Shown: piece after piece, positions 414 to 59,632 of the stretch
How positions within the stretch are numbered: the stretch's first letter is position 1
Layout: each line of letters opens with the position of its first letter
Source: Cerioporus squamosus
Lineage: Eukaryota; Basidiomycota; Agaricomycetes; Polyporales; Polyporaceae
DNA: 64,000 nucleotides
Direction of reading: 5' to 3'
Assembly: GCA_022592435.1 (NCBI GenBank)
Contig: JABYQS010000098.1
Location: forward strand, 62,001 to 126,000
Notes under the pieces: generated by a model
What the model saw: the letters and a program-made list of their open reading frames with translations, nothing else
Told to the model about the DNA's origin: nothing
The model's database searches: none
Translations under genes and position numbers: made by a program

Positions 414-1426
414 CTATAGGATCGTAAACTCCCGCGACACAAGCACATCCGGCAAACTCTCCATCACACCAAGCCTCTCGAGCAACAAGTGCCTCGACAT
501 CCGCGCTCGCTTCCCCAACTCCAACTCCAGCTCACCCCCGTACATACCAAGTTGGAGTAGCCATACCTCGCCGGGCCTCTCTGATCACGATCAGAGGACT
601 CTGGTCGATGCCAGCGGTCCCGCCCGGAACCCTGCACGGAAGCCGGGCCTTCGATGTCGCCCGCAGCGCGTTGGCCTCTGGCCCGACGAGCTGGCGGAAC
701 ACCACCGCCCCGAACCAGAAACAGCGGAGCTCGACGGCGCTCGGCTCCGTGTCCGCCCACGGCGGGCTCTGGTACGTGCGCGCGGAGACGGATGTGGCGA
801 CGTCCGTGAGCGACGGCGCGCGGTTCTGGCGGAACGTGTACGTGTATGTAGAGCGTGTGTTCTTTGGAGCGCTCCACGCCGGGCTCGCCGCTGTAGGCGA
901 GCACCAGGTGGCGGAACGTCGGTGGGATGGCTGCTGCGGCCGGAGACTCGAGTAACGAGTCCGCAGAGTGACGAGGGGATGTACTCGGACTGTCGAACGG
1001 GTTGGCAGAACGCGCCTCCTTGGCGATGCTGTCGCCGGCGACCGCGCCGTCCCCGTGCGGCTTGTGTTCGTGGGCACGTTCGACGAGGCATTCGAGCTTG
1101 AGGGCGCCCACGGGATGCGGCCGGAGAGTACCCCTATCTGCGGCGAAGATGGTCATGAGCACGGACACGCACTCGAGCTCATCGGTCCTCGGGCTCTTCA
1201 ACAGTTGGATCTTCTTGACGAAGCATCGCTGGAGGTCGGGGTCGGGGTCGGAGGAGAGCGCGGACTTGCAGCTGCGCATGTACAAGTCCTGGAACTCGAG
1301 CTCGGTGTCGCGCTCGGAGTCGGGCTCATCGCCCTGCAGATCGAGGAAAGTTCTCAGCCCGAGGGTGTCGCCCACGGGGAATCCGAGGAGGCGCATGGCA
1401 TTTTGCCAGGCGGATGTGAACACGGA
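414..1426 (-). pseudogene. Unrecognised gene with two reading-frame breaks
   Basis: I do not recognise this family. The first ATG (1426) lies about 48 nt downstream of a TATATAAA box (1474-1481). An acidic and serine-rich N-terminal part of about 190 codons reads cleanly to about 845. There the open frame jumps by one base within a TACATACACGTACACG run and continues in another frame to about 535, with the segment ELRCFWFGAVVFRQLVG. It then shifts again to a short C-terminal frame ending at 414. No splice sites explain the two jumps, so I read it as a decayed gene or as two indel errors. The stretch around FKLEC/LKLEC and the G..VVFR segment resemble the fragment at 4.9-5.3 kb, suggesting a duplicated family. 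Possible but unproven: a functional gene with unusual introns. Confidence 0.45.
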
Positions 1427-1473
1427 CATCCGTACTGATGGTGGTGACTGGTCAAGCTTCAAGGCCCGTCGCC

Positions 1474-1481
1474 TTTATATA
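1474..1481 (-). promoter_or_regulatory. TATA box upstream of the 0.4-1.4 kb gene
   Basis: TATATAAA on the minus strand, about 48 nt before the chosen ATG. It is a good match to consensus and supports start 1426 over the in-frame codon at 1462, which would be too close to it. Confidence 0.45.
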
Positions 1482-1969
1482 ACGATGCACTCACCGAACC
1501 GGTACCCCCTGTGGCGCGTGAGCTGGTCTCGTCGCTGTACTGTGGTGGGTGGGTCCGGACAACGCGGTTGGGGTACGTACTGACTGAATTCTTTCAGTAC
1601 ATCTCACGAACTCGGTAGAGTGGACATCCGGGAGCGGAAGAGACTGCGATCCCGACGACAAGTCCATATGCATATGGTTCCGCGTCAGCCACAACTCGAG
1701 CTCTTCATCACTCTTCCTCCAACGATCGCAAGCACTCTCACTGATCAACCTACAATTCGTCCTGCGGCTTTCGCTGTCTGCTCTACATGGCTCCCCACTC
1801 TTCGTGATGGATACACATATACTATGCTCTGTTCTGTGGGGCCGGCTGCAACAGCGACCCAGGTACGCACAAAATTGCATCATCGTAAAACTCCATTCAT
1901 ACTTCCACTCCAGGGCATATACGAAACACCGTCGTCGTCATCGTCGTCGTCTATCCTGCCGACCACGAT

Positions 1970-2708
1970 TCACGACGGGCAGTTAGGAGCGAGCCACCCG
2001 CGGCTCCTCCGCTCGCACCGGTACGACGCCAGAATGTCGTTGAAGCTCGACGTCTTCGTGCTCGCCCCTCCGTCCCCGACAGCAGTCCCCGCGTAGACGG
2101 TGAAAATGTCGGTTATACATCCTTGATCACTGTAGGGAGGCAGCAAGAGGTCGACGTCAGCGGAAGCTCCGGAACTCCTCGACCTGAACGTGCACGGGTT
2201 ACGTACCTATACACTGCAGCGGGACGAGTCCGAGTCATCAGTAAGCACCACCGAACTCGGCACTGGGCAGACCGAAGCACTCACGTTCGCAATACACGCA
2301 CACGTCGTTCACCCGGAAGCTCGAGACCGACTTCATGTACGCCTGGTCTTCGATGTTCATGCAGGTCTCGAGCGTGACCTCAGGCATAGTGCACTGGCCC
2401 GTGAAGTTCGGGTCCGTGCAGTATTCGACGCTGTAGATCAGGTTGCCCCCGCTCTGTCGAACGAGGTCGAAAGAGTCAGCGTCTGTGTCAGCACCCGTCT
2501 CCCGACCTCCCCGCCATCGCCAAGCTCATCCCTCGTCAGCGCGCGCGTGACGTACCTCCCTGGCTTCTTTGGAGGTGGCTGCCTCTCGGACCGCATCCAG
2601 AGTCTCGGAGGTCTTGGACGGTGGCGCGCGGTGCACTGCGTGAGCGTGGACGAGACTGGAGCTGGCGAGCAGGCACGCTGCAAGAACAGATAGCTGTCTG
2701 AAGAACAT
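1970..2708 (-). CDS. Small secreted beta/gamma-crystallin-like protein A
   Basis: Predicted extracellular protein of about 180 residues. Residues 1-24 form a signal peptide (MFFRQLSVLAACLLASSS..HAHA), followed by a short polar linker. Four exons fit: 2556-2708, 2285-2453, a 7-nt exon 2207-2213, and 1970-2183. Exon 2 encodes a first Greek-key-like unit (V-E-Y-C-T-D..F-T-G-Q-C... ending S-F-R-V-N-D-V-C). The micro-exon adds x-Tyr-x, and the last exon carries a second unit ending S-S-F-N-D-I-L-A-S-Y-R-C. The order Cys..G.C, S[FV]..D, Tyr, FND.I.SY is the pattern of beta/gamma crystallins, so the fold assignment is by analogy. Paralogues lie at 3.9-4.5 and 18.7-19.3 kb with the same exon layout. 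A TATA-like TATATATG lies about 120 nt upstream. Function unknown. Confidence 0.72.
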
Positions 2709-3882
2709 CGGTAAGCGTCGACGTGGGGCTCGTAGGGTGTATGTGGTGCCGTATAGGTTCGGGATGTCGGATGGCTGCAGCCCGAGGGCGAGTGAGAGGA
2801 ATAGGTTACCCTCGACATCCGAGTGCTCGTGCATATATACGCCCAGAATGCAGACGACGGTCGCCCGCGCGACAGTTGCAATTGTCAGGGCACCCTGCAA
2901 GCTGTCATTGTTCAGCAGATGGCCCATGTAAGCATTTCTGCACGTCGTCGAGTCCATGATATTGCGACTGACACGGAGGTGAGCAGGTTCAGATCATTCT
3001 CTGAAGGCGTCCAGCTCGTTCGGTGAGCGCAATGACTTCTAGTCTCTAGACATCCCGAGGTCATCCAGCGTTCGTGAAAGCATTCCTGCATACTTGATCC
3101 CCAATGTACTCACGGTCACCGCGACATCGTAAGTAGTCATTGTTGAAGTTTGCAGCGGTCTAGTCGATACCGTCAGAACTCAGTCTGTGTGCACGTAGTG
3201 TGAACAGCTTCAATATATTTACCTAGTCGATACCGTCAGAACTAGTACAGTGTCAGTACAGTATCTCTAGTGTATGGAACATAGACCTCTTACCTCAGTC
3301 TGTGTGCACGTAGTGTGAACAGCTGAGGAAGAGAGACGAAAATCTCGAAAGGATAGAGGAAGTGATTACGTAAGGAATCAAGTAAGTAACGGATTATTAG
3401 ACGAATCACAAAACGTAGTAAGTACGCTGTAAGTAGTTGTAACTAGTACGATGTAAGTAAGTTCTAAAGAACGACTTTCAACAGTCATTCCTCTCAAGTC
3501 GCCAGGAAGCGCACCATTCCCCAACTTTGCCTTAACCCACGTTTTCCCGGACTGCCAGTGCAGCCCGTCTCCGCATTCTAACAACTCTCGTCTCATCCGA
3601 CCGCCCGGACTTCCGGACTTAGCGAAACTCGAAAGGCACTAGGGAGAGCACTTGTACGAGGAGATCGTTCCGCTCCACTTGTGTCCAGTGTCATCTGGGC
3701 GGAAGTCTGCGATGGCAATGTGATGATTCCCTATACGACTGCGGAACACAGACACTAACTCCTACTCCGCAGTGCGCACCCCTTCGTCCCCCTAGCTACT
3801 CATAAGTCATGACGCTTCTACCTCCCGCCACACCCCCTCCTTCCCTCCTGCCGTACCATCCACAGGCATCTCCTACGGGACT
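2709..3882. other. Intergenic region
   Basis: Apart from the direct repeats at 3160-3324 and the promoter of the secreted protein gene on its left, I see no gene, RNA or mobile element here. The short open frames lack splice-compatible continuation and coding character. Confidence 0.5.
3160..3324. repeat. Interleaved short direct repeats
   Basis: A 21-nt unit starting CTAGTCGATACCGTCAGAAC occurs at 3160-3180 and 3223-3243. A 31-nt unit starting CTCAGTCTGTGTGCACGTAG occurs at 3179-3209 and 3294-3324. They are exact copies in intergenic DNA. The arrangement a-b ... a ... b suggests a small tandem duplication later interrupted. No coding meaning seen. Confidence 0.75.
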
Positions 3883-4532
3883 CTACGGGCACTGATGCAC
3901 GCAAACATACGAAGAGATCCTGTCGTTGAACGTGTTCGGCCCAGTAGTGCCGTCACTGACAGTCTGGTTCGGCGGGAAGACTCTCAAGATCGGCTTCACG
4001 GAGCATTCGTAGTCTCTGCGCATAGTCACAGAGATCATCAGGTCAGTACCAGGCGTAGGATCGTCGCGGAGTGCGGGAGTTGCGGCTTACTCGTATCCTG
4101 CCAGGAGACCGGTGCGGCGTCAGCAACTTGGAAATCCACATACGCTAGGCCACAACTCACCGGTACAAGCGGTACACTCATCTGTCCTCACGCTCGAAAT
4201 CTCGTTGTCGAACGCCAGGTCGCCTTGGAGGGTCTGGCATTCGCCGAACGGGCGCAGGCGGTAGTTGCAGTTCCCGGAGAGGTCGACGTCGGTGCACAGT
4301 TCGATGCCGCCGAGGTCCGCGTCCTGCCAATCCATGCCCCAGAACGATCAACTCGAGCCGCTACCGGAATCAAGAGGAACGCGTCACGTACACGTCTGTT
4401 CGGCAGCGATGCCGGGATATAATCATGTGCGGTGTCGACCTCCCGGCGGAAGGTGACGGCGGCGGCGGCGGCGGTACAAGAGCCTGCGACCAGGCAGGCG
4501 GCGAGGATGGCGGCGAGACGGGTGGAATGCAT
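3883..4532 (-). CDS. Small secreted beta/gamma-crystallin-like protein B
   Basis: Secreted protein of about 155 residues. The signal peptide is MHSTRLAAILAACLVAGSC followed by an Ala-rich stretch. Exons: 4392-4532, 4161-4323, a 7-nt exon (GATACGA), and a last exon ending at 3883 after C-V-H-Q-C-P. The first unit reads G-G-I-E-L-C-T-D..L-S-G-N-C and closes with I-S-S-V-R-T-D-E-C-T-A-C. The micro-exon supplies the conserved Tyr (G-Y-E), and the second unit closes N-T-F-N-D-R-I-S-S-Y-V-C. This is closest in layout to bona fide beta/gamma-crystallin motifs, where N-S-I-R-V-x-S..C...L-Y-E and F-N-D-S-I-R-S occur at the same points. A TATTTATA-type TATA box (4657-4664) is about 125 nt upstream of the ATG. 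No frame damage seen. Function unknown. Confidence 0.75.
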
Positions 4533-4902
4533 GGCCGAGGAGGATAACGAGGAGTGGATTCAGAGAAGGTGTAAGAAATGCAAAGAGGAAGGCGAGCGCA
4601 GCTCGAGAAGCAACAGTGAGAAGGATGGAGACTCAGCGGAAAGCTACTAGGTCCGGTATTTATACGGCATGCGAACCAGCTTGATTGCGCTCATCCGAGT
4701 CGGAGGATATTACATGTTGCAGTGGGATAATGCCGCCGCTGTAGACTCGGACGGCGGGGCTCGAGAACTGAACGACGGGGATGCCGGGGGGCTTCAGTCG
4801 ATTCTAGTCGATATGGGTATACCTGTCAAGTGGCCGGGATGTTCGAGCAGATCAGATCCGAGTCATCATTCTGGATGATCAGGCAAGAGAATGGGAGGTA
4901 AC

Positions 4903-5340
4903 CTACATACGAAGGAGCGTGAGTACATAGTTGCCTACGCCGTCCGTGTCGTCAGTCGGACAGACGACGGAATGATGGCTCCTATGGCATGGGTGGGTCG
5001 CGGAATACCAACATAGTGAACCAGTACTGGCAGTGCGACTGGGGGCTCGGGCTGTCGTAGTCGGGCCCGGGCACGTCGTAGCCATCATGGAGAGCGAGAG
5101 AGGACAGCGAGGAAGTTGGTGAGCCAAAGACGATACTCGTTGAGATGTATACTCGTAGATAACGTGTTTTCCGAAGCAGTTCAAGCGAGGCTTGCGGTTG
5201 TACACGAGGATCCGGTCGCGGAACACCACGCGCGGGCCCACAACAAAGAAATCCGAGCCGGACGAGTTCTGAAGACCGGCGGACAGACTCGAGCTGCTGT
5301 ACTGCGGGCGAAGGCTCAAGGGTACATTCGAGCTTGAAGG
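4903..5340 (-). pseudogene. Fragment related to the 0.4-1.4 kb gene
   Basis: An open stretch reading A-F-K-L-E-C-T-L-E, then in the adjoining frame S-G-S-D-F-F-V-V-G-P-R-V-V-F-R-D-R-I-L-V, resembles the LKLEC and FWFGAVVFRQLVG segments of the gene at 0.4-1.4 kb. I found no start, no complete frame and no convincing ending. It is best read as a relic of a second copy. Both copies sit next to a crystallin-like secreted protein gene, so a unit of two genes may have been duplicated. The similarity is short and judged by eye. Confidence 0.3.
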
Positions 5341-6228
5341 CGCCGGCGGGATGGGACCTCCTCGGTTCTCGTCTGTCTGGCGAGCTCGTAGGGTTATGGC
5401 GGCATTGTCGGGATACCGTCGAAAGACTTCGGGTACTACCGATATACCGCGAGTCTGAGTGGAAGAACTACGCTCAGCGGTCGAAGGAGCGGAACCGCGA
5501 CTGAGAGAAGAGCTCCGGACACCTGAGAGGACTATCTGGCGACCCCGATGATAAGTTCAAGCCTCGCAGACTCTGAGCCTGTAACAGACAAGGGTGAGCG
5601 CTGAAGCTGAAGCGCTCACGATCTACGTAGAGTCGCATCAAAACATCAATAGAGACAAACACCCGTCTGGTCGGTGTGAGCGTTTGCCACTCCAAGTCAA
5701 CTCCAAGTTGCAGCCTAACATCGAACTCCTTCTAAGTCCTGCCACCGCCGCTGCGGTATCGGACCCACTTGCGCCGCTGCCAGGTATACCGCGTGCTCAC
5801 GGTCGCCTTGACCTATCTGACTAGGTCACAACTCAAGCATTCCTCGAACCAAGCCTCGAAGTCTTGGTCGATGAAGCTTGAAGGTCCTTCCAGACCATGA
5901 CTTTCTCACCCATCACAATTGCGCGGACTCGTGACAGCAACATGCTTCAGGCACAATCCGGAAGGACATATGGCTGACTTGTCTCGCTGCACCCGCGAAG
6001 ACGCAAGTATTCTGCCATGCTAGTTGGTACATGTAGCTAACCTTCAGCGTTGTATCATTCCTCCGACCGATGCGATCCAATACTGGCTGTCATTCACACA
6101 CAGGATCGGACAGGCAACTATGAATGGGCGTACATGTTAGACTAACAGAGTTATTGGGGAACACGCCGCACGCCGCCCTCCCCCGATTTGCACGGCCGGC
6201 AGCGGTCATGCAGGATCGGTCGAGCAGA
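5341..6228. other. Intergenic region
   Basis: No gene, RNA or repeat that I can support. It ends at the TATA box of the first dehydrogenase gene. Confidence 0.45.
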
Positions 6229-6234
6229 TATAAA
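6229..6234 (+). promoter_or_regulatory. TATA box of dehydrogenase 1
   Basis: TATAAA, 73 nt before the ATG at 6302. It supports 6302 as the first AUG of the transcript, a choice that also makes the N-terminus equal in length (53 residues to the G-V-x-R-A-L motif) to that of the neighbouring paralogue. Confidence 0.5.
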
Positions 6235-6301
6235 GTGTCCAACGTTGACCTGACGACTTCAGGACGCCTCAATCTCGACACGCCTCCGTTCTCTACCTGC
6301 A

Positions 6302-7659
6302 ATGCTCTCTCTCTTGTCGGCCGTAGTGCACCTTGGGCATCATACTAAGTGCTCACGCATGGCCGCTCACAACATTCTCTCGAGTGCGCATGGCTACCTT
6401 CGCCGACGCATGTCTTACGCTCCCCCCAAGACCGTATCGTTCGGCGTCGGGAGAGCGTTACAAGCCTCACCCAGCTCATGTGAGTACTCCCACAATTTCA
6501 TACCCACTCTCCAATCTGACAGTCTTGGTCCCGGACAGCGTCGAACATCGGGACGACATTGTTCGCCAAGGAGTTCTCTCTGGCCGATCGCGTCGCCCTG
6601 GTGAGCGGAGGAAGGCGCGGCATCGGACTCGAGGCGGCGCTGGCTCTTGCAGAGGCAGGTGCACGGTCCGTTTATTGCCTGGACTTGCCGAAGGAGCCCG
6701 GAGAGGAGTGGACGAAGGCCCGCGAGCTCGCTGCTCGCATGGGCGTTGGTAACTTTGAGTACATCTCCGGCGACGTGCGCGAGCAGGTACGTCGGACGGT
6801 TCCGACTTTGCCCTGCGCGCAAGTTTTTCACGACGCACGCCACTGACGGATCGTCGCTGCAGGAGGCGATGTGGAAGATTGGAGAGACGATCGGGGATAG
6901 AGAGGGAAGGCTCGACGTCTGCGTTGCTGCTGCCGGTATACTGGGCGAAATCGCGCCGTCGCTCGAATACAACGAGCAGGCGTTTCAGGACGTGAGTGCA
7001 GTGTCCGCGATACATCGAGCCGATCGTACCTTCGGCTGACATCCCCCAAGATCATCGACGTGAACCTCAAGGGCGTCCTCTTTACCGCACAAGCCGCAGG
7101 CCGCCAGATGCGTCGCTTCGAGCAAGGCGGCAGCATCATCATGATCGCCAGCATCTGCGGCTCTGTGGCAATCGAGGTACGTCCTTTTGGAAGCTCACGT
7201 GTGACGCTAGAATTGAAAAGGGGTGATCTTCTTCACCAGCCGACAGTCTGCACGGTGGCATACCACTCAGCCAAGGCTGGCGTCCACCAGCTGGCACGCA
7301 GTATGGCTTGTGAGCTCGGATCAAAGGGCATACGGGTGAACACAGTCAGCCCCGGGTTCTTCAAGACGAAGTGAGTGTGCCCCTTCTGTATACCCCTCGC
7401 CGCACACTGACATCCCTCTATCACAGGATGGTCGCGCTTGCACCGCCAGAGGTTGAGGCGACTATGGCTAATGCGAACCCGCTCAGGAGGATCGGGCATA
7501 CGCAGGAGCTCCGGGGCGTCTTCGCTTGGCTCGCCAGCGACGCAAGCTCCTACTGCACGGGGATCGAGTAAGTGTCGCCCATGCATTACGCAAGCCGCGA
7601 AAGAGAGGCTAACCCGCGGTCACAGTGTGTCTGTGGATGGAGGTCACAAGGCTTGGTGA
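6302..7659 (+). CDS. Short-chain dehydrogenase/reductase 1
   Basis: Classical SDR oxidoreductase using NAD(P)H. It has the nucleotide-binding loop S-G-G-R-R-G-I-G, an acidic residue after the second strand (C-L-D-L-P), A-A-A-G in place of NAAG, the serine in I-M-I-A-S-I-C-G, catalytic Y-H-S-A-K, V-N-T-V-S-P-G, and the C-terminal S-V-D-G-G-H-K-A-W. Several 50-70 nt introns interrupt it, the first at 6480-6538. The overall pattern resembles fungal sorbose/xylulose-reductase-like SDRs, but the substrate cannot be read from sequence. The N-terminal 40 residues are rich in Arg, His and Ser with no acidic residues, compatible with a mitochondrial presequence. It is in tandem with a paralogue 260 bp downstream, and a third copy lies at 16-17 kb. 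The core TGG loop starts with Ser instead of Thr, a mild change. Confidence 0.85.
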
Positions 7660-7920
7660 GGTCGTCAAGTAATCCTTCGCTTCTCGGCTATGGAGCCAGA
7701 GTTCTAGGTCGTAGCCGTTCATGTACGCCGAGTTGAATCGAGCCGGTGACTTCAAGCTACGCGACTCATGACGGGGCCCCATGACGTCCACGGGACACTT
7801 CGTAAGTTCGCGACGGTATGCAGACCTTCGAACGCTCTCAGGCACGCTCGCGGGGTACAAAAGAGCCTCCCCCCATTTGACGCGGCCTCCGCACTCTGCA
7901 GGCACCCCAAGGCCCTTCAG

Positions 7921-9287
7921 CATGCTTCCAAAGGCCTCTGGAACTTTGCGCCTCGCCTCGGTGCTCTGCGCACGGCGCTCTCACGCGCACTTCTCCACCA
8001 ATGCTTCTGTTCGCGCTGCCCATGACCACATGACGGGCACGCTGCCGTCGTACGGTCCGGTCGGCGTCGCTAGAGCACTCGACGCCTCCTCCTCTGCTGG
8101 TACGTCCTGCGCGGTTCCTCACGGCTAACCGAGAGTCGAGGTGACTCGCTACTAACGCAACATTCAGACACGAACCCCACGTTATTCGCCAAAGAGTTCT
8201 CTCTCGCCGACCGCGTCGCACTGGTGACCGGCGGCAACCGCGGGATCGGACTCGAGATGGCACTCGCGCTCGTCGAAGCGGGCACCCGCGTCGTCTACTG
8301 CGTGGACGTCCCGGAGAAGCCTGGAGACGAGTTCAGCAAGGTGCGCGAGTTTGCGTCGCGCCTGAAGGGTACGGGCGGCGAGGCGAGGCTGGAGTACATC
8401 AGCGCGGACGTCACGGACCAGGTTCGTCTCTCGTCTCGACTCGGGTGGAATGAGCTCATCGTCACGAATGTGGGACGTAGAACGCGATGTGGAAGATCGG
8501 GAAAGCCGTCGGAGATCGGGAGGGGAGGATGGACGTGTGCGTTGCGGCCGCGGGGATCTTGCGAGGCGACACGCCTTCCCTCACCTATCCCGCGAAACAA
8601 TTCGAAGAGGCGCGTCGATTTCTCGTTCTTCGGTGTTCGCGTCTTGACTCCGCAAGCCCAGGTCATCGCCGTGAACGTGAATGGCGTGCTATACACCGCA
8701 CAAGCCGCGGGACAGCAGATGGACCGCTTCGGGAACGGCGGAAGCATCATCATGATCGCGAGCATCAGCGGGCACGGCGCGAACCAAGTACGTTCCTTCT
8801 CTCGCATATGTCTTGGACAGGGAAGACTCGGGAAAGACTGACGAGGATCCCGCAGGGCCACCCCTGGGTCTCGTACAACACCTCGAAGTCTGCAGTCCTG
8901 CAAATGGCGCGCAGCATGGCCTGCGAGCTTGGTCCTAAGAACATTCGGGTGAACACCATCAGCCCCGGATACATAAACACCAGGTAAGTGTGTTCTCACT
9001 CTCAGAGCCCGTACTAGGACCCATCTCACGCACGTCCCGTACAGCATGACGGGGCAGTTCCTCGCGAAGCGTCCGGAGTTGCTGAAGATGTGGTGCAGCC
9101 ACAACCCGCTCGGGCGGATCGGGCGACCGGACGAGCTGCGCGGCATCGTGGCGTGGCTCGCGAGCGATGCGAGCTCGTTCTGCACCGGGAGCGAGTGAGT
9201 ACTTATGACATGCTGCAGATTGATAGCTGAAGCTAACAGCGTCATCGCTGTAGCATCCTCGTGAGCGGTGGGCACCACGCTTGGTAG
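7921..9287 (+). CDS. Short-chain dehydrogenase/reductase 2
   Basis: Paralogue of the gene just upstream and in tandem with it. The start MLPKASGTLRLASVLCARRS looks like a mitochondrial targeting sequence. After a shared P-S-Y-G-P-V-G-V-A-R-A-L motif comes the SDR core: T-G-G-N-R-G-I-G, C-V-D-V-P, A-A-A-G, I-M-I-A-S-I-S-G, catalytic Y-N-T-S-K, V-N-T-I-S-P-G, ending V-S-G-G-H-H-A-W. Most introns are at the same sites as in copy 1. One intron, 8610-8661, has a GC donor (GAG|GCGCGT) with a normal CAG acceptor; it is required to keep the frame aligned to both paralogues. Substrate unknown. Confidence 0.83.
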
Positions 9288-9904
9288 GTCCTCAGCAGGC
9301 CGTTGTATCGAAATCGAGAGAGTATGCAAAAGGCTAGAGTGTGCAGGTCTGCCCTTTGCTGTGCATCGAGTATTTTCTGGGAAGAGATGGACGCGATGAA
9401 TCGCTGTGCTTTCACGAAAACCCAGAGGTGACGCAGAGAGTCCTGACTTGATGCTGAGCTTAATGTCGCTGCAACTGTTCTTATGTACAAGTAGGATGAC
9501 AGCGGCCGATAATGACTCTGTTCGCCGAAGTACCTCGACTTGGCAAGGTCGAGTGCATCGTGCAACATAGCGTGCATTCTCAGAAGAGTCAACTTTGGCT
9601 GTGAGTGATGGAGGAGGGGCCTGAAGAAGGGGGGGGAGGAGGAGGTAAAGACGTTTCAGATGAGCTAGTTCACATTGTAGATGCACCCGGTCCCTCGCGC
9701 CATAGTTTTGGAGGCAAGGAACCAGCTACGGCGTCCTGACAGTGACGACTCAGCAGTCGAGGAGGCACACGAACTTCAAATCCGACGATGGGGCTGTCAC
9801 GGTCGCGTGTGTGATGCATCACGTGGAAGCATGTCACAGCGCTCAGGGCGCGTCCCGCTGGCAGCGACGACGAGACGACTTTCCCGGACCGTCTCTACGC
9901 ACAC
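9288..9904. other. Intergenic region
   Basis: 3' flank of dehydrogenase 2 and 5' flank of the BTB-type gene. It contains a GGA/GGG-rich purine run near 9610-9640 and nothing else that I can support. Confidence 0.4.
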
Positions 9905-11046
9905 ATGTCCTCGCGGACATCTACACGGCGCAAGAGGAAGGTAGTCTCTGCAGGACAAGAGGACAGAGCTTCTTCTAAACGCTCTCGTCGCGCACAATCT
10001 CCGTCTATTGTCTTTCTCTATATCCGCAAGTCCGCACCTCCCCCCTTCAACGCCGACGACGCCGACGTCATCCTTCAAACTTCCACGGGGATACCGTTTA
10101 GACTGAAGAGACACATCATCAAGCTTGCGTCACGAGTGTTGGGCGATGTCATCACTCGGACTGTGCAGTCGTACCGCCCCAGTTCCCCGCCTCGATGCGT
10201 CGAACACACCGTCCCCCGAATCCGACTTTGTCCTAGAGGTGCTTTTGCGCTTCATCCACTTTGAAGAGCCCGTCCTGCTTGACCTGGATGACATTGTTGA
10301 CGTCCTCGAGGCCGCCACCAAGTATGAAATACACATCGCTATTCAGGGCTTAACGAAGGCGTTACCGCGCTTCCTCGACAAGGACCCCCTGCGCGTCTTC
10401 AGCGTAGGTCGGAGAGTTTTCCTCGCTGACCCGAGTTGCGTCTTCAAGCGCGCTGTGCTAAAGCACCCCTTACAATGACCGCCGACCACGCATGACCCCG
10501 AGCAGGACACGTCTCTCCAAGAGCTCTACGACGCAGTCAAGTACCGCCGCAGAATATCCTTCGCCGCCATCTCCCTCGTTGAAGACCCATCACGCCTGCG
10601 ATCTCTCCCGTGGGACCGCGTACCCGGCGGGAAGCCGCCATGTGGTGGAACGTGTTGGTGGCCCGTCTACACCGACCGCGCAAGGCACTTGCTACATGAG
10701 ACTCCTCTCAGCGACGTTGTCTGCAGTGCCTCGCTGGTCGCTTCCGTTGGACTGGATCTGAAGTGTGTGGACTGCAGAGAGCATCTGCTCTGTATCCTCC
10801 TCCCCGACGGGTATATCGAGCAGCTGAGACATGACATCGACGCTTTACCGGACGTTGTTAGTACAGGTGAGAACCGAGTGTATACTCTCCTCCTGCGTCG
10901 GACTGCTTACATCGACTTCATGGCAGGATTTATGTGACTGTCTCCGATGCAAGACATGTTCACGGTACTATCGCGGCTCTCAGACAACGATCATGGACGC
11001 TTACACTCAGAGGAGACTCGGAGAACTACCAGGCGCATTGGACGTG
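9905..11046 (+). pseudogene. BTB/POZ-domain protein, decayed
   Basis: Nuclear-type basic N-terminus (S-T-R-R-K-R-K) followed by a BTB domain: D-A-D-V-I-L-Q-T-S-T-G-I-P-F-R-L-K-R-H, then V-L-E-V-L-L-R-F-I-H-F-E and L-D-L-D-D-I-V-D-V-L-E-A-A-x-K-Y-E. This matches the expanded basidiomycete BTB family of transcription or ubiquitin-adaptor-like proteins. The frame shifts between about 10150 and 10200, inside the domain. An in-frame TGA at 10476-10478 separates the BTB part from a downstream region (T-H-D-P-E-Q-D...L-Y-D-A-V-K) that is still open and family-like. The last possible intron (about 10877-10926) would not rejoin in frame. Three independent faults make a pseudogene likely. The end is approximate. 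Confidence 0.6.
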
Positions 11047-11343
11047 TCGTCGCCATACGAGGCCGAGTCGACTCATATACTCTGTGGCGTGCTCATCCGT
11101 CACCAACCCCTGTCCCTCTTCGTCAAATCGCCTACGCGACGTCATCCGCTTCAGCGTCCGGAGTGCAGACGCGAACGCTGCGCTGTTCTCCATCTTTCGT
11201 GCTTGGGGACATATACCCTTTGCTTCCCCGGCTTGTCAGCCCTTGAGTGTCCGCACGACTCTCATGGCCATCTCCTGCATCATTTTACGACTGCGAATGA
11301 TGCCGGTTGGACTGTACTCGCCCTATGCATCAGACCCTGCCAT

Positions 11344-11950
11344 TAGTGACTTGCAAGTCCCGGCTCGGTCTGAAGCCTGGGGCTTGGGCCCGGCTTCAGA
11401 CAGCCGGGGCTTGGTCGAACCTCAGGCCGGGCCCCGAAGACGTCTCAGGCCGGGCTGTGCGGCTTGTCCCGGCCTGAGCCACGGCTTCGGTTGACTGAGG
11501 AGTAAACTCAAGATGCGCAATTTTGGGGGCTTCGTGAGGCTCTGTTCAGGCTTATATGGGTTGCTTCGAGTCGACAACGAGATGATAACCATGCAGGAGC
11601 GCATTCGGAGCTTACACGGGGTCAAACCTGTGCGCATGAGTGAGTCGTTCAGTTCTCCTACTCGCTGAGGGTGGCTAAAAGCGATAAAATGAGGTGGTGT
11701 GGTTAGTGATTCATTAAACGCTGCATACCCTCCCATAGTTGACGCACCCTTACAGCTAAAGCCAGGCCTGTGGTACATGGTTGAGCAGGGCGTCCAAGCC
11801 CCGGCGTGACGTCTCGGCTCGGGCTTGACATATGCTCGAGCTGAGCCGTCAGGCCGTCAGAAGCCCCCAACAAGGCTCGTCTTGTCCCGGCCTGCACAAG
11901 GGCTCGGCCTCACGGCTTGACGGCCTGAGGCCGGGACTTGCAAGTTACTA
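11344..11950. mobile_element. hAT-like non-autonomous element (MITE), 607 bp
   Basis: The terminal inverted repeats start TAGTGACTTGCAAGTCCCGG on the left and, read inward, TAGTAACTTGCAAGTCCCGG on the right. The element is bounded by an exact 8-bp target duplication, CCTGCCAT, at 11336-11343 and 11951-11958. GC-rich subterminal repeats (GGCCGGG, GGCTTG motifs) surround a more AT-rich centre. There is no transposase coding. The TAG ends and 8-bp duplication are hallmarks of the hAT superfamily. The superfamily call is inference; the repeat and duplication are seen directly. Confidence 0.85.
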
Positions 11951-12248
11951 CCTGCCATCCCGGCGCGCGCATGGACGCATGCTAATGATCCCCAGCTCAC
12001 CCTCGGAATGGAGACTCGGCCTCCCGACTATAAAGCTCGACCAGCACCGGAGAACATTCTCGCAATCCTTCCAAGCATACTGAGCCCGCCATCCTCCTAC
12101 TCCTACCTGGCCCTTTTTTTCGTTCGCTCCATTTGTTATCCCCTAATTCGTTCGCCTTCCTTCGTTCACCTCATTCATCTACTCTCTTCGACGTTGAGTT
12201 CGCTCGCCTCGTTTTCGTCAAGTTCTACACCAACGATTGTCTCCTGTC

Positions 12249-13114
12249 ATGCGCCTCCACGCTCTTTTCATCTCGGTGACATGCATTGTTGCGAGCAGCT
12301 GCGCCGCTCCGATACCCGTCCTGAGTTTTCCCGAAGCCGCGGACGTCTTCAGGACACCAAATGGACCCTACGACTATGAGGCTGTTGGTCTCCTGAAGCG
12401 AGTGCGTGTTCAGATGTTCACTCATAGATATGCAAATAGCTTACAATATGTCGGCGTTAGGATGTCCTGGGCGCGGCATCGCACGCAGTGGTCTCGTACC
12501 CAGACTATGTACGGGATGAGGTCGCACCCCACCACCGCACCTACCCGAACGTCTGGGGCAGTTTGATAGAGACCTCCTACCTCCCCCCCCGTGGGAACTT
12601 TTCCGGGCTTAAGCGCCCCCGAGTCCTGAGGGCAGCGCGTCACAGATGGCCGTGTTTCTACTGAGATCTTCATATGTATACTCCCCAGAACATGACTGAG
12701 AGGTCGAGAGAACGTGCAAGAACATCAGGAGATTTTCTGAACCATTTGCTGCTCAGGAAATACTCCCCAAGTCGTTGGTAGGCAGTAGAGTAGTACTGCA
12801 GACAGGGCAGGAGGCTCAATACTGGGAGCGGCGCTATGGTTCTTGGTTCCAATCATGCCCAAACATCTCGGGCACGATCAGAGGTCTTGCGAGACTAGAA
12901 TACAGGTGAATAACATCTAGACCAAGTGCAAAGTAGCTGCGAGGCGGTCGGAGCTCGGGGCGCTTAAGCCCGGAAAAGTTCCCACGGGGGGGAGGTAGGA
13001 GGTCTCTATCAAACTGCCCCAGACGTTCGGGTAGGTGCGGTGGTGGGGTGCGACCTCATCCCGTACATAGTCTGGGTACGAGACCAGCACGCAGTTATCA
13101 ACGAGTCTCTGTAA
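12249..13114 (+). pseudogene. Small secreted peptide precursor split by a MITE
   Basis: Exon 1 (12249-12401) encodes a signal peptide (MRLHALFISVTCIVASSCAA) and a short acidic pro-segment ending G-L-L-K-R, a Kex2-type dibasic site, just before a GTGCGT donor. The intron runs 12402-12460. Exon 2 begins D-V-L-G-A-A-S-H-A and is broken by the 598-bp element at 12489-13086. Ignoring the element and one copy of its target duplication, the frame continues into a short tail and a TAA at 13112-13114, giving a precursor of about 66 residues. A TATAAAG box lies at about 12030. With the element present the frame reads into its left repeat for about 55 more codons. The peptide resembles no family I can name. 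A hydrophobic peptide released after Kex2 cutting would be its product. Confidence 0.55.
12489..13086. mobile_element. Long-TIR MITE, copy 1 (598 bp)
   Basis: The ends are perfect or near-perfect inverted repeats of about 120 bp beginning TGGTCTCGTACCCAGACTAT. They are flanked by an exact 8-bp target duplication, GCACGCAG (12481-12488 and 13087-13094). A near-identical copy with inverted internal orientation lies at 37531-38408. It has no transposase. An 8-bp duplication points to the hAT or a related superfamily, whereas the very long repeats are more Mutator-like, so I leave the superfamily open. It sits inside exon 2 of the secreted peptide gene. Confidence 0.9.
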
Positions 13115-13608
13115 TCGTCCGAAGACATGGGTTCCTACCCGCCTCAAGCCAAGCACACCACACGTGCGCTCCTCGAACCTCATGGTATGTTTCATAATCG
13201 TCCAGTCACTGAGTCGCCTAATGGTTCTGACGAATACTCTCTGTAGAACGCGACTGCGTATTTATACTAACGGCCCAGCTAGCATACTTACTAACACGAT
13301 CAACCACGCCAGGTTCGACGACCACAACATTGACCATGCTAGCAGTCTCTCCCCAGCGAGCATACCCCGTTACTGAAGGGACTGCTGCCAGGAGGGTTAC
13401 TTGGACCAGGAGACTTTCCGCAGGACGGGCCAGTGTACTAGAAGGTGGAACCATCTTCGGAATGTCACGCAGGTTGCCGTAGTAAGAGTCTATATATTGT
13501 ATACAACACGCATGTCCCATATTCTGCGTGAGCCACCGCGCATGATGCCCGCCGACTACGATGTTGCCCCATGTTGACCGTCAAAGTCCCGATACCGACT
13601 GCAGTACT

Positions 13609-15454
13609 TCACTTCACGCCCAGCTCCGCCTCTCGGCCCATGCTGCCGTTCCCGATACCCCCGCTCCCCCTTGTCTCTTCCTGGATATCATCCGCATGGC
13701 CATGGGCGTGCTCCGGGTCCTGAGGTGACCCGCACGGTCCAGCGGCGACAGGCAGATCAGGTATACCATCCGCTTCGTAGGCTGTTGCTTCTTCACGTTC
13801 CACAGATCCCGGTCTGATTGTTGCCGCGATGGAACCTGCGACTCGTGCGAAGTTGAGCGAGCCCGATCGACGTCCCTCCGATTCGGTAAAGTGCAGCGGA
13901 TCGTCCGAGTCGAGCTTCACGTCGCGTTGATTCGCTTCCTGCAGGTCGAGCAGGAAGCGAGTGACGAGGATAGCCATGAGGCTGTACGACCGCGGCGGCA
14001 TTTCCGTCAGTAATTGAGAGACCGTGAAGGTGAAGTCCGAGAACAGCTTACGGGTCGGTGAACGTTGAAATGTGGCTCACGGCGCCATCCCACCATATCT
14101 TGCCAGAGGGTAAGTACGGGCCACACAGGTAGTAAGGCCCGCTTGAAACTCACCGCAGTCAGTGAAAACACTATGTGGAGGACGTTCAGCGTGACCGCGG
14201 CTCTGTCAAGAACGATAAGCTTCGGCGCCGGACGGCATGGCAAGTAAAGCGATGAACGGAGGACGCACATGAGGTATAGCATCCCTAGGAGTTGCGAACA
14301 GTGTAAGCAGCATATGAGTGACCTCGCAGAAGCACGACCTGCATACCATTCCACATCATCACACTCGCCAACGAATCGGCCGAGAACATTTTGTGATCGA
14401 ACCGCACGGAGTCTGCTTGCGTACGCCAGGTCAAAACGGCGAGGATGAAGTCACTGAGGATGAACCCTCCACGAGAGAGGATTGTAACTGTACACGAGTT
14501 AGCCCCGGATGTGCTTGAAACAGTAGTGACGCACACCTGCGCGAGCATCAGCATTTCGTCCCACAGACATAGTCCTCAAGGATCGACTCGGAACGCACAT
14601 GATTGCCTCTACTTGGGTAGTCGGCGAGTCTGACAAGCATCCCTCGGGTGGGAACATGAATCCATGTATCCCGATCTTGAACTTCATCTACAGGAAAGTG
14701 AGCAAACCATGACTTCGCAGTGATACGGCTTTGGAATATACGCAGTTTACTACCAGCGGTATGAGGGAAAGCACGCTCACTAGCGTACATACCGCCCACT
14801 TCCGATGCCGCGCCAAGGCATATGCCCGCATTGCGGAGAATGCTGAAACAATCATAGTATGAGCGACATGTCGTTGGGTCAGGCGGTCTGCACGTACCGG
14901 CTAAGGATAGATACCGGACGTTACTGAACGCATCAGTCGCATTCACGAGTTCGTCACAGCTACCAGAGGCCGCACGGGGTATCAGCACTGTGCTTGGTCG
15001 CAGTAGACGAAGCGGGAGCACCTCTGTACAAGTGGAAGGGATTTACCGATCAGCGGACTGGGAGGAGCGACCTTTGGGATTGACGCACCTTATCTGTCAA
15101 AGTCGGAATCCATACTCCGAATTGACTCACGGCGGACAGCAATGCCTGGTAGCGTGTCACGTAGAACAAGACCGACGGGACTCGAGAAGGTATGGCCCAG
15201 AACGATCCGACTTCGCAGTCGAAAGTCAGGAGATAGTCGTAAATGAGAAGTGCTTGCGTATCATACATAGTGAGTCGCACTCCCTAACATACTAACGGTG
15301 TCATACTCACCCAGCGTAGCAAAGTAGGCGTAGTTATCCTGTTGACTAACGAGCCCGATGTCAGCGACAAGACGTAGAATGATTTCAGCTGGCAAGATAC
15401 TCACACTTCGTCGGCTATGTTGACGATCTGGGTTGCAGCCACTGAGGAGGACAT
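13609..15454 (-). CDS. DUF6533-type seven-helix membrane protein
   Basis: Plasma-membrane protein of unknown function from a large agaricomycete family with a receptor-like seven-helix plan. It starts MSSSVAATQIVNIADE. After two introns comes the signature helix A-L-L-I-Y-D-Y-L-L-T-F-D-C-E-V-G-S-F-W, then several hydrophobic segments on separate small exons (14.0-15.0 kb). The closing cytoplasmic part is L-V-T-R-F-L-L-D-L-Q-E-A-N followed by a polar tail ending at 13609. The L-D-L-Q-E-A-N-Q motif after the last helix is typical of these proteins. I assigned exon borders confidently only for the first three and the last exon. The middle ones are inferred. Ligand or role unknown. Confidence 0.7.
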
Positions 15455-16134
15455 GTTGGAGACCTAATCGGCAGGAGAGTCGCAAACGGCCGCCCTTATA
15501 CCTTCGACTCCCTATGAACAATTAGATGCCTACAGAATACGGATGTTCAACAAACACACAGCATAACCGCATCCGAGTCATCTCTCTCTGATCGTCCGCC
15601 GGGAAGGAGACAAGGAGCGCAGTCATAGACTCCTGTGGCGAACAGCGGAGATGATTGATTACCGTTGTAAAGAAACCACATCCAGTCCAGGAGGGAGCTG
15701 TACCGCTAGGATGCGCGGCCGTAGCGGAGATAGGAACTCACCAGACATTGTCCGACCATGTGTCTATGTGGCATATCTGTCGACGTCTTCGCTGATTGAG
15801 CGGTCCTCTTCCGCGGTCGTTCTGGTTCCGCCACTGTCACCTTGTGCATGCCAGCGTGGAAATCAACCCCGTGCATCGCGATTGAAGAGCTACGCCTAGA
15901 AGACACGTGGGGCCAGTGGTGATGGTGCGGTATAACAGATGCGATGTCACGATGCACTGGCTGCAAGATGTGGGGTCTCCGTAGGGCTCAATGTCGTATG
16001 GTCGACATCGCGGACGTTCATCTGTCTTCGGGTACTCACCCGGTACTCCTTGGAAAGGGCGGTGGCCCATGGCTTCAGCACACGCGAGTGTTATTCATTC
16101 GCCAAGACAAATTTGAAACAACTTGACGGCTGTG
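15455..16134. other. Intergenic region
   Basis: Head flank of the membrane protein gene and tail flank of dehydrogenase 3. No supported feature. Confidence 0.4.
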
Positions 16135-17418
16135 TCACCACGCGCGATGTCCACCATCTACGATGATACTGTGGACAGAGATGCAATCGCAACATCATCA
16201 AAACACCTTCGAGAGTAAATCTCAGGAACTCACTCGCTCCCAGTACAGAATGAGCTCGCATCACTTGCCAGGAAGGCCAAAGCGCCGCGAAGCTCGTCCG
16301 GACGCCCTATCCTTCCCATCGGATTAGCAGCCGCGACCTTCGCGCCTAGCTGTGGGACCTGCTCGAGCCATTCGGTCATCCTACAGAATCCCAGGGTTCT
16401 CAGTGACGCATCTCCGCTACGGAACACTGAAGAGACCTACTTGGTGATGACGAATCCCGGACTGATCGTGTTAACTCGGATGCGCTGCGGGGCGAGCTCA
16501 CACGCCATGCTGCGTGCCATCTGGAGCACCGCCGCTTTCGACGCCTGGTACGGGATCGTGCAGATCGGCGGCTGGGAGTTGCGCGGTCAGATAGACTAAG
16601 ACACCTGTGGCAGAGAGACGGAGGGAGACGAAGACGCACCTCCATTGCCACCCTCCCGCATATGCTCGCAATCATGATGATACTCCCGCCCTTCCCGAAC
16701 CGTGCCATCAGGCGTCCCGCGGCTTGCGCGGTGAAGAGCACGCCGTTGACGTTGACGTCCATGACCTGACGGAGTTGAGCGCTGAGCAGATGCATACGAG
16801 TAGAGCAGAAGCACTCACGTCCTGAAACTCCTTCCCCGGAAAGTCCACGGCTGCTCCTACGTCAGCGGTACCAGCTGCTGCAACGCACACGTTCAAACGG
16901 CCTTCACGATGTCCTACTTGCTCAGCCAACTTCCAGATAGCTTTCTGCACGTCGAAACACCGGATGAGCTCACTTGACATGTACATCTGATTGGCAACGA
17001 GGAGAGATACGCTGCTACTCACCTGGTCACGGACGTCGCCGTGCAGATACTCCAGCTTGCACGACAGGCCCATGGACTGGATGAACTTGCGCACTTTGGT
17101 AAATTCTTCCCCTGGCTGCTCTGGGAGGTCTATGCAGTAGACGGCCCGTGCTCCCGCCTCCGCGAATGCCAGCGCTGCCTCGAGACCAATGCCGCGATTA
17201 CCCCCCGTGACGAGAGCGACACGGTCTTCGAGGGAGAAATCATGCGCAAACAGAGTTGGGGCCGGTGCTGTACCGCAGAAAAGGCTTCATGATCTGAAGA
17301 CGTATATATATGAAGAGAAGCTGGACGTACGGGTAGACTCGGACTCGGGAGCCGCGAGCGCTCTGGCAACGCCGACAGGTCCGTAGGATGGTATCGCAGC
17401 AGCAGCTGTCGAGGACAT
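16135..17418 (-). CDS. Short-chain dehydrogenase/reductase 3
   Basis: Third SDR paralogue. It starts directly at MSSTAAAAIPSYGPVGVARA, so it keeps the P-S-Y-G-P-V-G-V-A-R-A-L motif but lacks the 35-40 residue basic N-terminal extension of copies 1 and 2, suggesting a cytosolic location. The core has T-G-G-N-R-G-I-G, C-I-D-L-P, A-A-A-G, I-M-I-A-S-I-C-G, catalytic Y-Q-A-S-K, V-N-T-I-S-P-G, C-T-G-S at the last intron, and V-D-G-G-H-R-A-W at the end. Introns have canonical GT-AG ends; the first is in the Ser/Thr-rich linker and the last just before the final exon ending at 16135. It reads open throughout. The substrate is unknown; a sugar- or polyol-type reductase is the usual role of relatives. 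Confidence 0.83.
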
Positions 17419-18610
17419 TGTGGTGATAGGAAATAGCTCAGGCCGTGAAGGAGCAGAGAAGTTGAGAAAGACGGGGTAAGTACTGGGGCGTTCAGGTCGA
17501 ACGTGTATATTCGCACTGCTCGGAAATTAGCCCCAATAATGAGCACATCAGCGCTCTGAGCTTCGCAAAAGGTATGTAAGAGTATAATTTTAAGCCTGGG
17601 TGTCGATAAGAAGGTCGAACGTGGGGTAAGCACTGCTTGAGATAGAGATTACTGAGCATTCGGAGCATTGGCAGGGATGGCGTTCAAGCTCTGCCAGACT
17701 CCCGGACTTACTAGTACTGGCTAATCACCGGAACCATTCGCTCACGGAGGTCCTGCTCTTCTTGAGAACCCGATAGGTACTCTCGCGCCCATACTTTCCG
17801 CGCAGCGCTCGCCTGGGCCCTTGGGCGGCGTGGGCGGAGGGTTCTGCGAGTTGCTCGTCACTGCCGGCGAGTAGACATCTATCTGCAGACACGGCGGTCA
17901 ACCGTCTGATAGGCTAGCTTCCAGTAACCGTCAAAGAGAGAACCAGGGGATGGGACGAAATAATCGGTGGAGGCAGGAGCAGTGGCAAGAGGTTCGCCTC
18001 CGTGACTCGGACACTGAGAGAATGTGACAGCGCTTGTGCCGTAACCGTCACGCGTTCCCAGAGGGCGCCGAGGTTCCTGCGGTCGACCACGATGACGCCA
18101 GCGTGATTTTGGGTGAAAAGTCTCGGAACCTCCGCTCGCGCGTCCGGGGTATTCGTATGTTGCTCTGTTACTGACATACTGTTGTACGTGGGTCACTTAC
18201 TACTTATAGGTCCTTGGATCGATACCAACCCTACCAGAATCTGGAGAACACTACCGGTTTCACCTTAGTATCAGTACGCCCATATATTCATCCATGACAA
18301 CCAGCATCTACGTCATAGATAGCTCTGGGAACTGACGGTACTACTACTAGTGACTTCTCTACATTCAGGTACCACGTGAACCGAGAGTACACCCGCCCGC
18401 GTCACGCTGGACCATCAGAACCATAGGGACGGTGTCAGGAGTGAGTGTACAGCGAACCCCTAGGGCAATCTGCACGGTGTTGCCCCTGCTCTGTGCATGT
18501 GAACAGCGACGCGTGAAGCTATCCCAACGGCATAGAGACCGACGAGCCCAAATTCGGGACCGGCAGTGACAAGAATGTCCGACGTCCGGATGTGTCAAGT
18601 ACGGTTCTAC
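17419..18610. other. Intergenic region
   Basis: A minus-strand open stretch of 87 codons (17914-18177, starting MSVTEQHTNTPDARAEV) ends in a hydrophobic segment. It has no relatives I know and no clear promoter, so I do not call it a gene. Otherwise nothing is seen. Confidence 0.35.
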
Positions 18611-18616
18611 TATAAG
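18611..18616 (+). promoter_or_regulatory. TATA box of secreted protein C
   Basis: TATAAG, 74 nt upstream of the ATG at 18685, at the spacing usual for highly expressed fungal genes. Confidence 0.45.
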
Positions 18617-18684
18617 TACCAAGGAGTGCCTTTGCGCTTCGCAGCCCCCGACCCTCGAGAGCCTGCGACTTCCCCCAGGACGCC

Positions 18685-19308
18685 ATGCTCCCTCTCCTCG
18701 TCGCCCTCGCGATCTCCCTCTTCGCCGCTTTCGTTGCAGCTTCGCCAATCGTCAACACAGCTCCTCTGGTCGTGCGGGAGGTAGATGCGAAGCTGGAAGA
18801 GACCGTCCTGGAGGTACGTGAGCTCTACCATTCGGTTTGAGCGAATCTGACCGTCATGTATGATCACTAGAAACGGAACATCGGCGGGGTGTACATCTGC
18901 ACCGGCACGAACTGGAGCGGGACGTGTGGCTACGCAGTTCAGCCACTGAACACCTGCATCGTCCTCGGCTCGGACTGGAAGAACAAGATCGCAAGCTTCG
19001 GCCCCGACTCGTGCACCTTGTGCTTCGGTACGCCTCCCGTCCGTCATTGTGCGGCTCGTATCCCAGTGCTTACTTAGCTCGACAACACAGCGTACAAGTA
19101 TGCCTCTACCTTATCTTGGAAGAGGAATGGCACACTAATGCAGCAATTATTTGGCAGGACGAACAACTGCGCCTTTGGAGACGGCTTCTTCTGGATGTTC
19201 CAGAACCCCGGCGACGCGAGCGGGGGGCGGAGCGTAACCAACAACGCGTGGAACACGCACATCGAGTCATTCAAGTGCTGGCGGTCTCCTGACTGCTACG
19301 CGTCCTGA
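18685..19308 (+). CDS. Small secreted beta/gamma-crystallin-like protein C
   Basis: Secreted protein of about 150 residues with signal peptide MLPLLVALAISLFAAFVAAS. Exons are 18685-18813, 18871-19027, a 7-nt exon 19091-19097 (CGTACAA) and 19158-19308, all with GT-AG introns. Unit 1 reads G-G-V-Y-I-C-T-G-T-N-W-S-G-T-C-G-Y and ends I-A-S-F-G-P-D-S-C-T-L-C. The micro-exon supplies A-Y-K, and unit 2 ends W-N-T-H-I-E-S-F-K-C. The S-F-G-P-D-x-C motif followed by the Tyr is characteristic of the basidiomycete crystallin-like secreted proteins. It is the same gene plan as A and B, but on the other strand and 14 kb away. Function unknown; it may be a cell-wall or interaction protein. Confidence 0.78.
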
Positions 19309-20006
19309 AGATACCCAAGGCGGTAAGTATTCCATAGCAGTCTCGATGAGCCTCGCTGACGGTTCATAGGGCAGTCGTACGAGAGTCCCTAGGCCGTCGA
19401 ATCAGAGGCGGAAGTTCTACATATACGGCAGATTTCAATGCCAGGGCTACTTACCACCGCGCCCATGTACGCTCATTCGTGGGTGCGGTCCAACGGTATC
19501 GGGTGGTGCCGGTGAGCCTGCGTATTTGACCGCCCATGCGACACTATCCACTAGTAGTAGTACCTGAACGGAAAGTATCGATATCAGACTCAGAGTACCG
19601 ACCATCATTCAAATTATCGCTCAAAGCAACGCACTGATACTGAGGTCGACTATGTACTAGTACTGCTACCGAGGCACCTGATTCGCCGCTATCGATCTCG
19701 CTTACGCCACCAGTGACCGGTGACTAGTGCGTCCAGGATCCTACAAGTACGCAGACATCCCCTCTGACTACGGCTCGAGCTACCCGCAACTGCTCATACT
19801 TCCCATCGAGCTACATAGCACCCACGAAAGGACTCTACTGCCTATCCGGTAAGAATTGCCTCCTCAGATGAAGCATCGCATATGCAGACCGCGTGCGTAC
19901 CCCTAAGCATGGCGGTAGCCGCATGCGTCGTGCTTCCAGAAAAGCTCGTCACCCTCACACATACCAGTACTCATCGGTCATATTCTGCAGGACTCTCTGG
20001 CACAAC
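19309..20006. other. Intergenic region
   Basis: Contains several short imperfect CTAGTAGTAGTAC-like motifs but no gene or element I can delimit. Confidence 0.4.
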
Positions 20007-20570
20007 ATGAGCACCAGTCCATCCGAGTCGAACCGGGACTACCTCATCCGCACCGCCGACCTCTCCCCCGACACATTCCAACACCACAGCCACTATCACC
20101 CAATCGCGAACACGAACAATTCCTACCAGTTCCCGCTAGGGGACCGCACGGGCCTCACCAAGACCGCCGTGCACTTGTGCCGCGTCCCCGCCGGTGCGAC
20201 GAGCACGACGCTGCACTGGCACACGCACGAGGACGAGTGGTGCTACGTCCTCGAGGCGGACCCGGACGCGGTCCTCCTCATCTGGGAGGGCCCCATGGAC
20301 GTCCAGGACCAGGACATAGAGAAGGTCGTGCCGCGGGAGGAGAGCGTGAAGCCTGGCGATTTCTTGGGCTTCAAGGCTGGGATTCCCCGCGCGCACACGT
20401 TCAGGGCTGGGAAGAAGGACTTGGTGTATCTCGTAGGGGGCAGCCGGGAGGAGCTCGATGTCTGCCACTATCCCGGAGTGGGGATGAGCAAGGTGATCGG
20501 GAGGGAGTCGGAGTGGACGTTCGAGGATAAGTCGGTCACCTTTGAGGACAAGCGACCGTCCCGGAAGTGA
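20007..20570 (+). CDS. Cupin-domain protein 1
   Basis: Single-exon gene for a 187-residue single-domain cupin. Motif 1 is H-W-H-T-H-E-D-E-W-C-Y-V-L-E, giving the two His and the Glu of a metal site. Motif 2 is P-G-D-F-L-G-F-K-A-G-I-P-R-A-H, giving the last His. The relatives are small fungal cupins of unknown reaction; a metal-dependent dioxygenase or isomerase is possible. There is no signal peptide, so it is probably cytosolic. The start at 20007 is the first ATG in frame and aligns with the second copy at 26.8-27.3 kb (M-S-x-S...D-Y-L-[IV]-R-T-A-[DE]-L-S-P-D). It ends E-D-K-R-P-S-R-K. Confidence 0.85.
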   Translation: MSTSPSESNRDYLIRTADLSPDTFQHHSHYHPIANTNNSYQFPLGDRTGLTKTAVHLCRVPAGATSTTLHWHTHEDEWCYVLEADPDAVLLIWEGPMDVQDQDIEKVVPREESVKPGDFLGFKAGIPRAHTFRAGKKDLVYLVGGSREELDVCHYPGVGMSKVIGRESEWTFEDKSVTFEDKRPSRK

Positions 20571-59269: not shown

Positions 59270-59632
59270 GGTATAGACAAGGTTCAGGTCAGCGTGATTT
59301 CTCAGGGGCGGGGATGTGGGTGTCGAGTAAAAAGGCTCGTGGACACGCCCCCGGCATCCCCGGCGTGAGTCGCACGATCATATGACCACACGATGGCGCG
59401 GCGAACTGAGCTGAACGAGCTGAAGCCCTACCAAACGCTCCCCTTTCGGTGTACACCCTCTAGAGAGTATAGGCGAGTATCTTGAGCCTGCTCGCACCCT
59501 GTTCGCACCCAGCTCGCTAGGTGTTCGGGACCGTTCTGACTCACCAACCTCGCTTAATGAAGGGTTGCCTGGTAGCACACGAGCCGACATCTCCCAAGAC
59601 GCTCTGGTATTAGTCTGATTCTGCGTGTTGGA

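Follow-up and report, generated by a model that had tools for sequence, protein, structure and literature searches.

A 7-nucleotide exon at a module border in paralogous genes for putative secreted crystallin-like proteins of Cerioporus squamosus

The stretch of DNA analysed here, called the window, comprises 64,000 nucleotides (nt) of the fungus Cerioporus squamosus (positions 62001-126000 of contig JABYQS010000098.1, here C977, in a genome of 53,974,592 bases) and carries three genes, A, B and C, whose third exon is just 7 nt long (Table 1). When we rebuilt these genes base by base from the window sequence, the coordinates, 7-nt sequences and phases proposed in the initial annotation were reproduced exactly. 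Each gene has four exons separated by introns of phase 0, 1 and 2, with exon 3 lying between the phase-1 and the phase-2 intron, and the open coding sequences of 489 (A), 444 (B) and 444 nt (C) specify proteins of 162, 147 and 147 residues. A fourth gene, D, was found on another contig (C441:704-1231); its exon 3 is TTTTTGA, its phases are again 0, 1 and 2, and Phe replaces Tyr. By sequence, exon 3 of A to D is an internal coding exon far below the 30 nt that bounds a microexon, and it is flanked by GT-AG introns of 53-77 nt. A direct join of exon 2 to exon 4 brings in a premature stop in 3/3 window genes and in D. The best explanation is that A, B, C and D are paralogous genes for small, cysteine-rich, presumably secreted proteins with one beta/gamma-crystallin-like domain. 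An additional A-like copy at C977:7-300 looks decayed by eye and holds a remnant of the small exon.

Table 1. Exons of genes A, B and C, in window positions
Feature	Position	Strand	Content
Gene A exon 1	2556..2708	-	putative signal peptide and propeptide; hydrophobic N-terminus
Gene A exon 2	2285..2453	-	first Greek key, by alignment
Gene A exon 3	2207..2213	-	7 nt, TGTATAG; completes Leu, encodes Tyr, starts Ser
Gene A exon 4	1970..2129	-	remainder of second Greek key and stop
Gene B exon 1	4392..4532	-	putative signal peptide and propeptide
Gene B exon 2	4161..4323	-	first Greek key, clamp DNEISS
Gene B exon 3	4091..4097	-	7 nt, GATACGA; completes Gly, encodes Tyr, starts Glu
Gene B exon 4	3883..4015	-	second Greek key, clamp NDRISS, stop
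Gene C exon 1	18685..18813	+	putative signal peptide and propeptide
Gene C exon 2	18871..19027	+	first Greek key, from the model of homologue P0001
Gene C exon 3	19091..19097	+	7 nt, CGTACAA; completes Ala, encodes Tyr, starts Lys
Gene C exon 4	19158..19308	+	second Greek key and stop, from the model of homologue P0001

The public protein models of C. squamosus agree with this reconstruction. P0013 is identical to our spliced model B and P0015 to model D, while P0014 contains model A from residue 105, the product of the 7-nt exon included; the public models for all three of these genes therefore already include the exon. The suggestion that most gene finders would miss it thus did not hold for these genes, and the view that the exon is real was borne out both by this exact agreement and by the sequence evidence. 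A counter-case comes from another species, where the public protein P0050 looks like a model missing the 7-nt exon. P0014 begins 104 residues ahead of the Met of gene A used here (2708, -), a start that would hide the signal peptide; a relative from Lentinus tigrinus, P0016, begins near the Met that we used. The protein closest to C is P0001 of Polyporus arcularius, which is 84% identical over its full length and has the same CFAYK.

Close copies of A, B and C lie in the same order on contig C122, with identities of 98.7, 92.8 and 97.6%, and we infer that they are the second set of alleles. In none of the three putative allele pairs does exon 3 differ. For gene B, introns 2 and 3 together differ at 25/138 bases and 12 gap columns, against 8/444 exon bases, and for gene C the corresponding counts are 9/123 and 5/444. 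The alleles of gene A (1/148 in introns 2 and 3, 4/489 in the exons) show no contrast between intron and exon and are uninformative. Between paralogues, the introns share at most a 9-base match. Exon 3 had been described as independently conserved in three paralogues; since all four genes have their intron positions and phases in common, the exon plan is better read as inherited than as invented four times.

How readily such an exon turns up by chance was estimated by dinucleotide shuffling of the interval between exon 2 and exon 4, 5,000 times for each gene, under a splice-site rule of our own definition. An in-frame 7-nt exon appeared in 3.1% (A), 1.3% (B), 1.4% (C) and 0.5% (D) of shuffles, and one with an aromatic second residue in 0.18, 0.06, 0.08 and 0.02%, respectively; in-frame exons of any length up to 30 nt were commoner (20.6, 8.3, 8.9 and 4.2%). 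In 4/4 genes the 7-nt exon yields C-x7-C with an aromatic, and this Cys spacing of 7 recurs in 69 of 80 proteins, the 80 being those of the 121 matches listed that were scorable with a simple pattern. A branch-like site 18-32 bases ahead of the acceptor is present in 8/8 introns flanking exon 3, compared with 17-42% per shuffled intron, with a pattern that we defined ourselves and to which TTGAC was added after D was seen.

Structure prediction returned a crystallin fold for B and for P0001, the homologue of C, these two being the proteins that the models cover, and so upheld the resemblance to crystallins first noticed in the sequence. The first strand of the second Greek key contains the exon-3 Tyr, which aligns, with weak E-values, with the L-Y aromatic of flavollin (3hzb) and the I-F aromatic of spherulin 3a, in keeping with its proposed place at the crystallin L-Y position. 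Profile searches of solved structures gave weak matches, partly to unrelated proteins, and the protein of gene C found no match at E <= 10 when compared with solved structures by phmmer. One domain of two Greek-key motifs, as defines beta/gamma-crystallins, is predicted. Their signature, Y-x-x-x-x-Y/F-x-G, is described in the available part of one account as highly variable (PMC3551895). Read by eye, the signature is absent from A to D: in key 1 the Y is replaced by Cys, giving C-T-x-x-x-[FWL]-x-G in A, B and C, and D is also without the G; in key 2 the Y is kept (F in D) and Cys replaces Y/F. We therefore call the proteins crystallin-like and do not file them as beta/gamma-crystallins. The calcium motif N/D-N/D-x-x-S/T-S, a sequence candidate for binding, occurs twice in B and twice in D but not in A or C, and is missing from 77 of 101 homologues that are not read-through open reading frames (ORFs).

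No Pfam or NCBIfam model scored above its cut-off on the crystallin-like part in the scans made. Inhibitor I36 (PF03995) matched 3/10 proteins at E <= 0.5, all under the cut-off (best P0118, 17.8 against 21.1 bits), Yeast killer toxin (PF09207) matched 1/15 members of our alignment A1 (E 0.032), and an NCBIfam scan of six proteins gave no match. Three protein searches assembled at least 121 proteins, the last of them scoring the 7999 candidates with the most words in common, and the family is larger or at least incompletely listed. Leaving out 20 read-through ORFs (judged by eye) and four proteins without a usable anchor, Y, F or W stands at the exon-3 position in 78 of 97 homologues, and in 74 of the 85 that have the following Cys. 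A dibasic pair 1-3 residues ahead of GG, GV or GI, like the propeptide border of C, is found in 55/121. Two Mycena proteins, P0055 and P0108, have a match to DPBB_1 (expansin-like) after the crystallin-like part, at 39.5 bits in P0108 against a cut-off of 28.8 and at 23.5, under the cut-off, in P0055. This fusion is a possible hint of a role at the cell wall, and we tentatively suggest that the proteins act outside the cell, on the wall or on competitors.

We suggest, with a probability of about 0.9, that these are secreted crystallin-like paralogues whose exon plan follows the module borders and that the 7-nt exon is genuine and most likely constitutive. The gene would be cut so that exon 1 carries the signal and propeptide, exon 2 the first Greek key and exon 4 most of the second. 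Exon 3 would be the 7 nt left between two introns, finishing one codon and opening the next, and would supply the aromatic, Tyr in A to C and Phe in D, that fills the Tyr position in the second-key signature Y-x4-[Y/F]-x-G, here Y-x4-C. Both flanking introns are short and each has its own splice sites, so that intron definition probably removes them in succession, and constitutive inclusion appears most likely given these self-sufficient introns and a frame that plain skipping would break. The exon itself may have arisen when two introns became neighbours.

Evidence on this last point comes from outside C. squamosus, where intron states were read from translated ORFs that run into introns, those used for the donor tests having been picked by eye after viewing. 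Nine ORFs apparently continue across intron 1, at the propeptide border. A phase-1 donor (G/GTRNG) just before the aromatic is allowed in 11/15 ORFs, against a background for N/GTRNG over tripeptides of 10.9%, and a phase-2 donor (GTRNGT) just after the aromatic, with none before it, in 7/10 ORFs, one of them too short to test, against a background of 0.25%. P0044, near-identical to Morchella P0024, has an insert at intron 1 yet is continuous through the aromatic. In Sanghuangporus vaninii P0050, the retained stretch can be read as intron, 7-nt exon (A-Y-R) and intron, like S. sanghuang P0022, a reading that 132 of 20,000 shuffled peptides also allow. Taken together, the donor counts, P0044 and P0050 suggest two separate introns whose adjacency creates the 7-nt exon. 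The reverse history, in which both introns are ancestral and the lineages that now have one or none arose by loss, is in our view less likely than not. Both positions are present in C. squamosus and, to judge from one protein, in Sanghuangporus, as loss would have it; against it stand the P0044 ORF, continuous through the exon-3 region, and the ORFs in which the second donor is the sole one possible.

The exon could instead be a regulated switch, included or skipped according to conditions, with skipping shifting the frame, ending translation shortly past the first Greek key and so turning the protein off through mRNA decay or leaving a one-key fragment. The premature stop seen in 4/4 genes on skipping to the exon-4 acceptor would suit such a device, as would the glucose-dependent microexon published for Trichoderma Xlr2, according to the available text of that report (PMC11121469). 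Nothing in our sequence analysis points to regulation, however, and skipping would require a single intron of 122-155 nt, about twice the length of each flanking intron, which we take to be disfavoured; we consider a switch unlikely. Similarly improbable is the combined proposal of an obligatory exon that arose in steps, as two introns came to lie 7 nt apart on either side of the signature aromatic at a module border, and that doubles as an on/off switch for the protein.

Several observations weigh against a genuine, most likely constitutive exon in a crystallin-like family. That exon 3 is part of the mature mRNA would follow from public protein models that are possibly ab initio, and no public model of gene C itself was among the matches listed in the protein searches. 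On paper there are 66 in-frame single-intron alternatives (30 in A, 12 in B, 11 in C and 13 in D), and in gene A a 4-nt exon (GTAC) is likewise in frame. Two of the 66 pair the true exon-2 donor (GTGAGT in B) with an AG that lies past the exon-4 acceptor, by 2 nt in B and by 8 nt in D; the frame stays open, so that these two genes could conceivably give an in-frame product lacking exon 3. A branch-like site was found in 2/4 first introns, being missing from intron 1 of B and D. The aromatic is lacking in 19/97 homologues; these include P0033, P0050, P0060, P0099 and P0100, whose gene models look altered at the exon-3 place (the four besides P0050 by eye on the family alignment), and six genuine-looking proteins of Mycena in which Ser, Ala or Met takes its place (P0090, P0093, P0102, P0105, P0110 and P0113). 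Comparison with solved crystallins by sequence is weak (best E 0.011), and Pfam PF00030 (Crystall) gave 15.4 bits for A against a cut-off of 25, no match at E <= 10 for B or C and, at E <= 1, a match to 1/15 members of A1. The back-translation of P0050 is one post hoc case. The single-intron models and the 4-nt exon of A were set aside, as they do not retain C-x7-C with an aromatic: a Cys eight residues ahead of the exon-4 Cys survives in two of the 66, both from gene B, none of the 66 combines it with the aromatic, and the 4-nt option gives C-x6-C. That one intron or another small exon is the true structure, and the 7-nt exon a chance AG-7-GT, is highly improbable in the face of its presence in four paralogues with dissimilar introns, shuffle rates of 0.5-3.1% per gene and public models that agree for A, B and D.

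Some further features of the window were noted. Intron 3 of gene C (19098-19157, +) is 60 nt long with an open frame, and its retention would add 20 residues without a stop. Downstream of gene B, 3738-3639 (-) is a possible alternative last exon, reached from a donor at 3910 inside exon 4 through an acceptor ending at 3739; the in-frame join over a 172-nt intron would end the protein in ISSYKCSP, and in this stretch the alleles differ at 1/100 bases, against 8/144 and 5 gap columns just upstream. A tandem-repeat scan of positions 1-20000 found three short arrays, none inside the genes. Two similar ORFs at 19893-20570 (+) and 26779-27333 (-) are presumably cupin-type proteins. Another two related ORFs lie at 27712-28575 (+), which we take to resemble NF-YB histone-fold proteins, and at 58669-59280 (-), which seems to change frame part-way.

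These genes offer a testable case of how a far-undersized exon arises and persists, as relatives seem to have these two intron positions both singly and in combination, and they point to a broad, as yet unnamed family of crystallin-like proteins secreted by fungi. Gene models of this family may be wrong at the exon-3 place in some species, which matters for screening or modelling such proteins.

Among solved crystallins, the Abundant perithecial protein (APP) of Neurospora crassa (PDB 5z6d, 5z6e) is 11% identical in the alignment. Spherulin 3a of Physarum (1hdf), flavollin (3hzb) and protein S (1nps) differ from the C. squamosus proteins, whose precursors have 8 to 10 Cys and, by eye, have Cys at signature position 1 in the first key and position 6 in the second, and of which A and C are without a canonical clamp. 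The cupin assignment attached to the name spherulin concerns other spherulins. A cupin is how spherulin is treated in the available part of a report on Rigidoporus microporus (PMC11446221), in which the agaricomycete spherulin-like secreted protein 872712, likened to ours by description only, is modelled on APP and spherulin 3a and is up after latex exposure. For chordate beta/gamma-crystallins, the accessible portion of one account (PMC11118217) places the introns of Ciona and vertebrate gamma-crystallin genes between Greek-key regions, as here, and those of lancelet inside the motifs, unlike here; that portion mentions no 7-nt exon.

No description of this exon or family was found in the literature searched, most subscription papers being outside its scope. 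Very small exons have been described from other fungi before: as far as the available excerpts go, Tuber has codon-sized exons (PMC4986451), and Trichoderma Xlr2 provides a functional microexon in a filamentous fungus, as the C. squamosus exon would be, though one regulated by glucose (PMC11121469). In the white-rot basidiomycete Phanerochaete chrysosporium, P450 genes have exons down to 6 bp, which the excerpt describes as spread over families and restricted to none (PMC1184071). The exon of C. squamosus, in contrast, occupies one fixed place in one protein family, and the retention of a frame-breaking 7-nt exon at the signature aromatic in a family of secreted proteins seems, within the literature searched, to be new.
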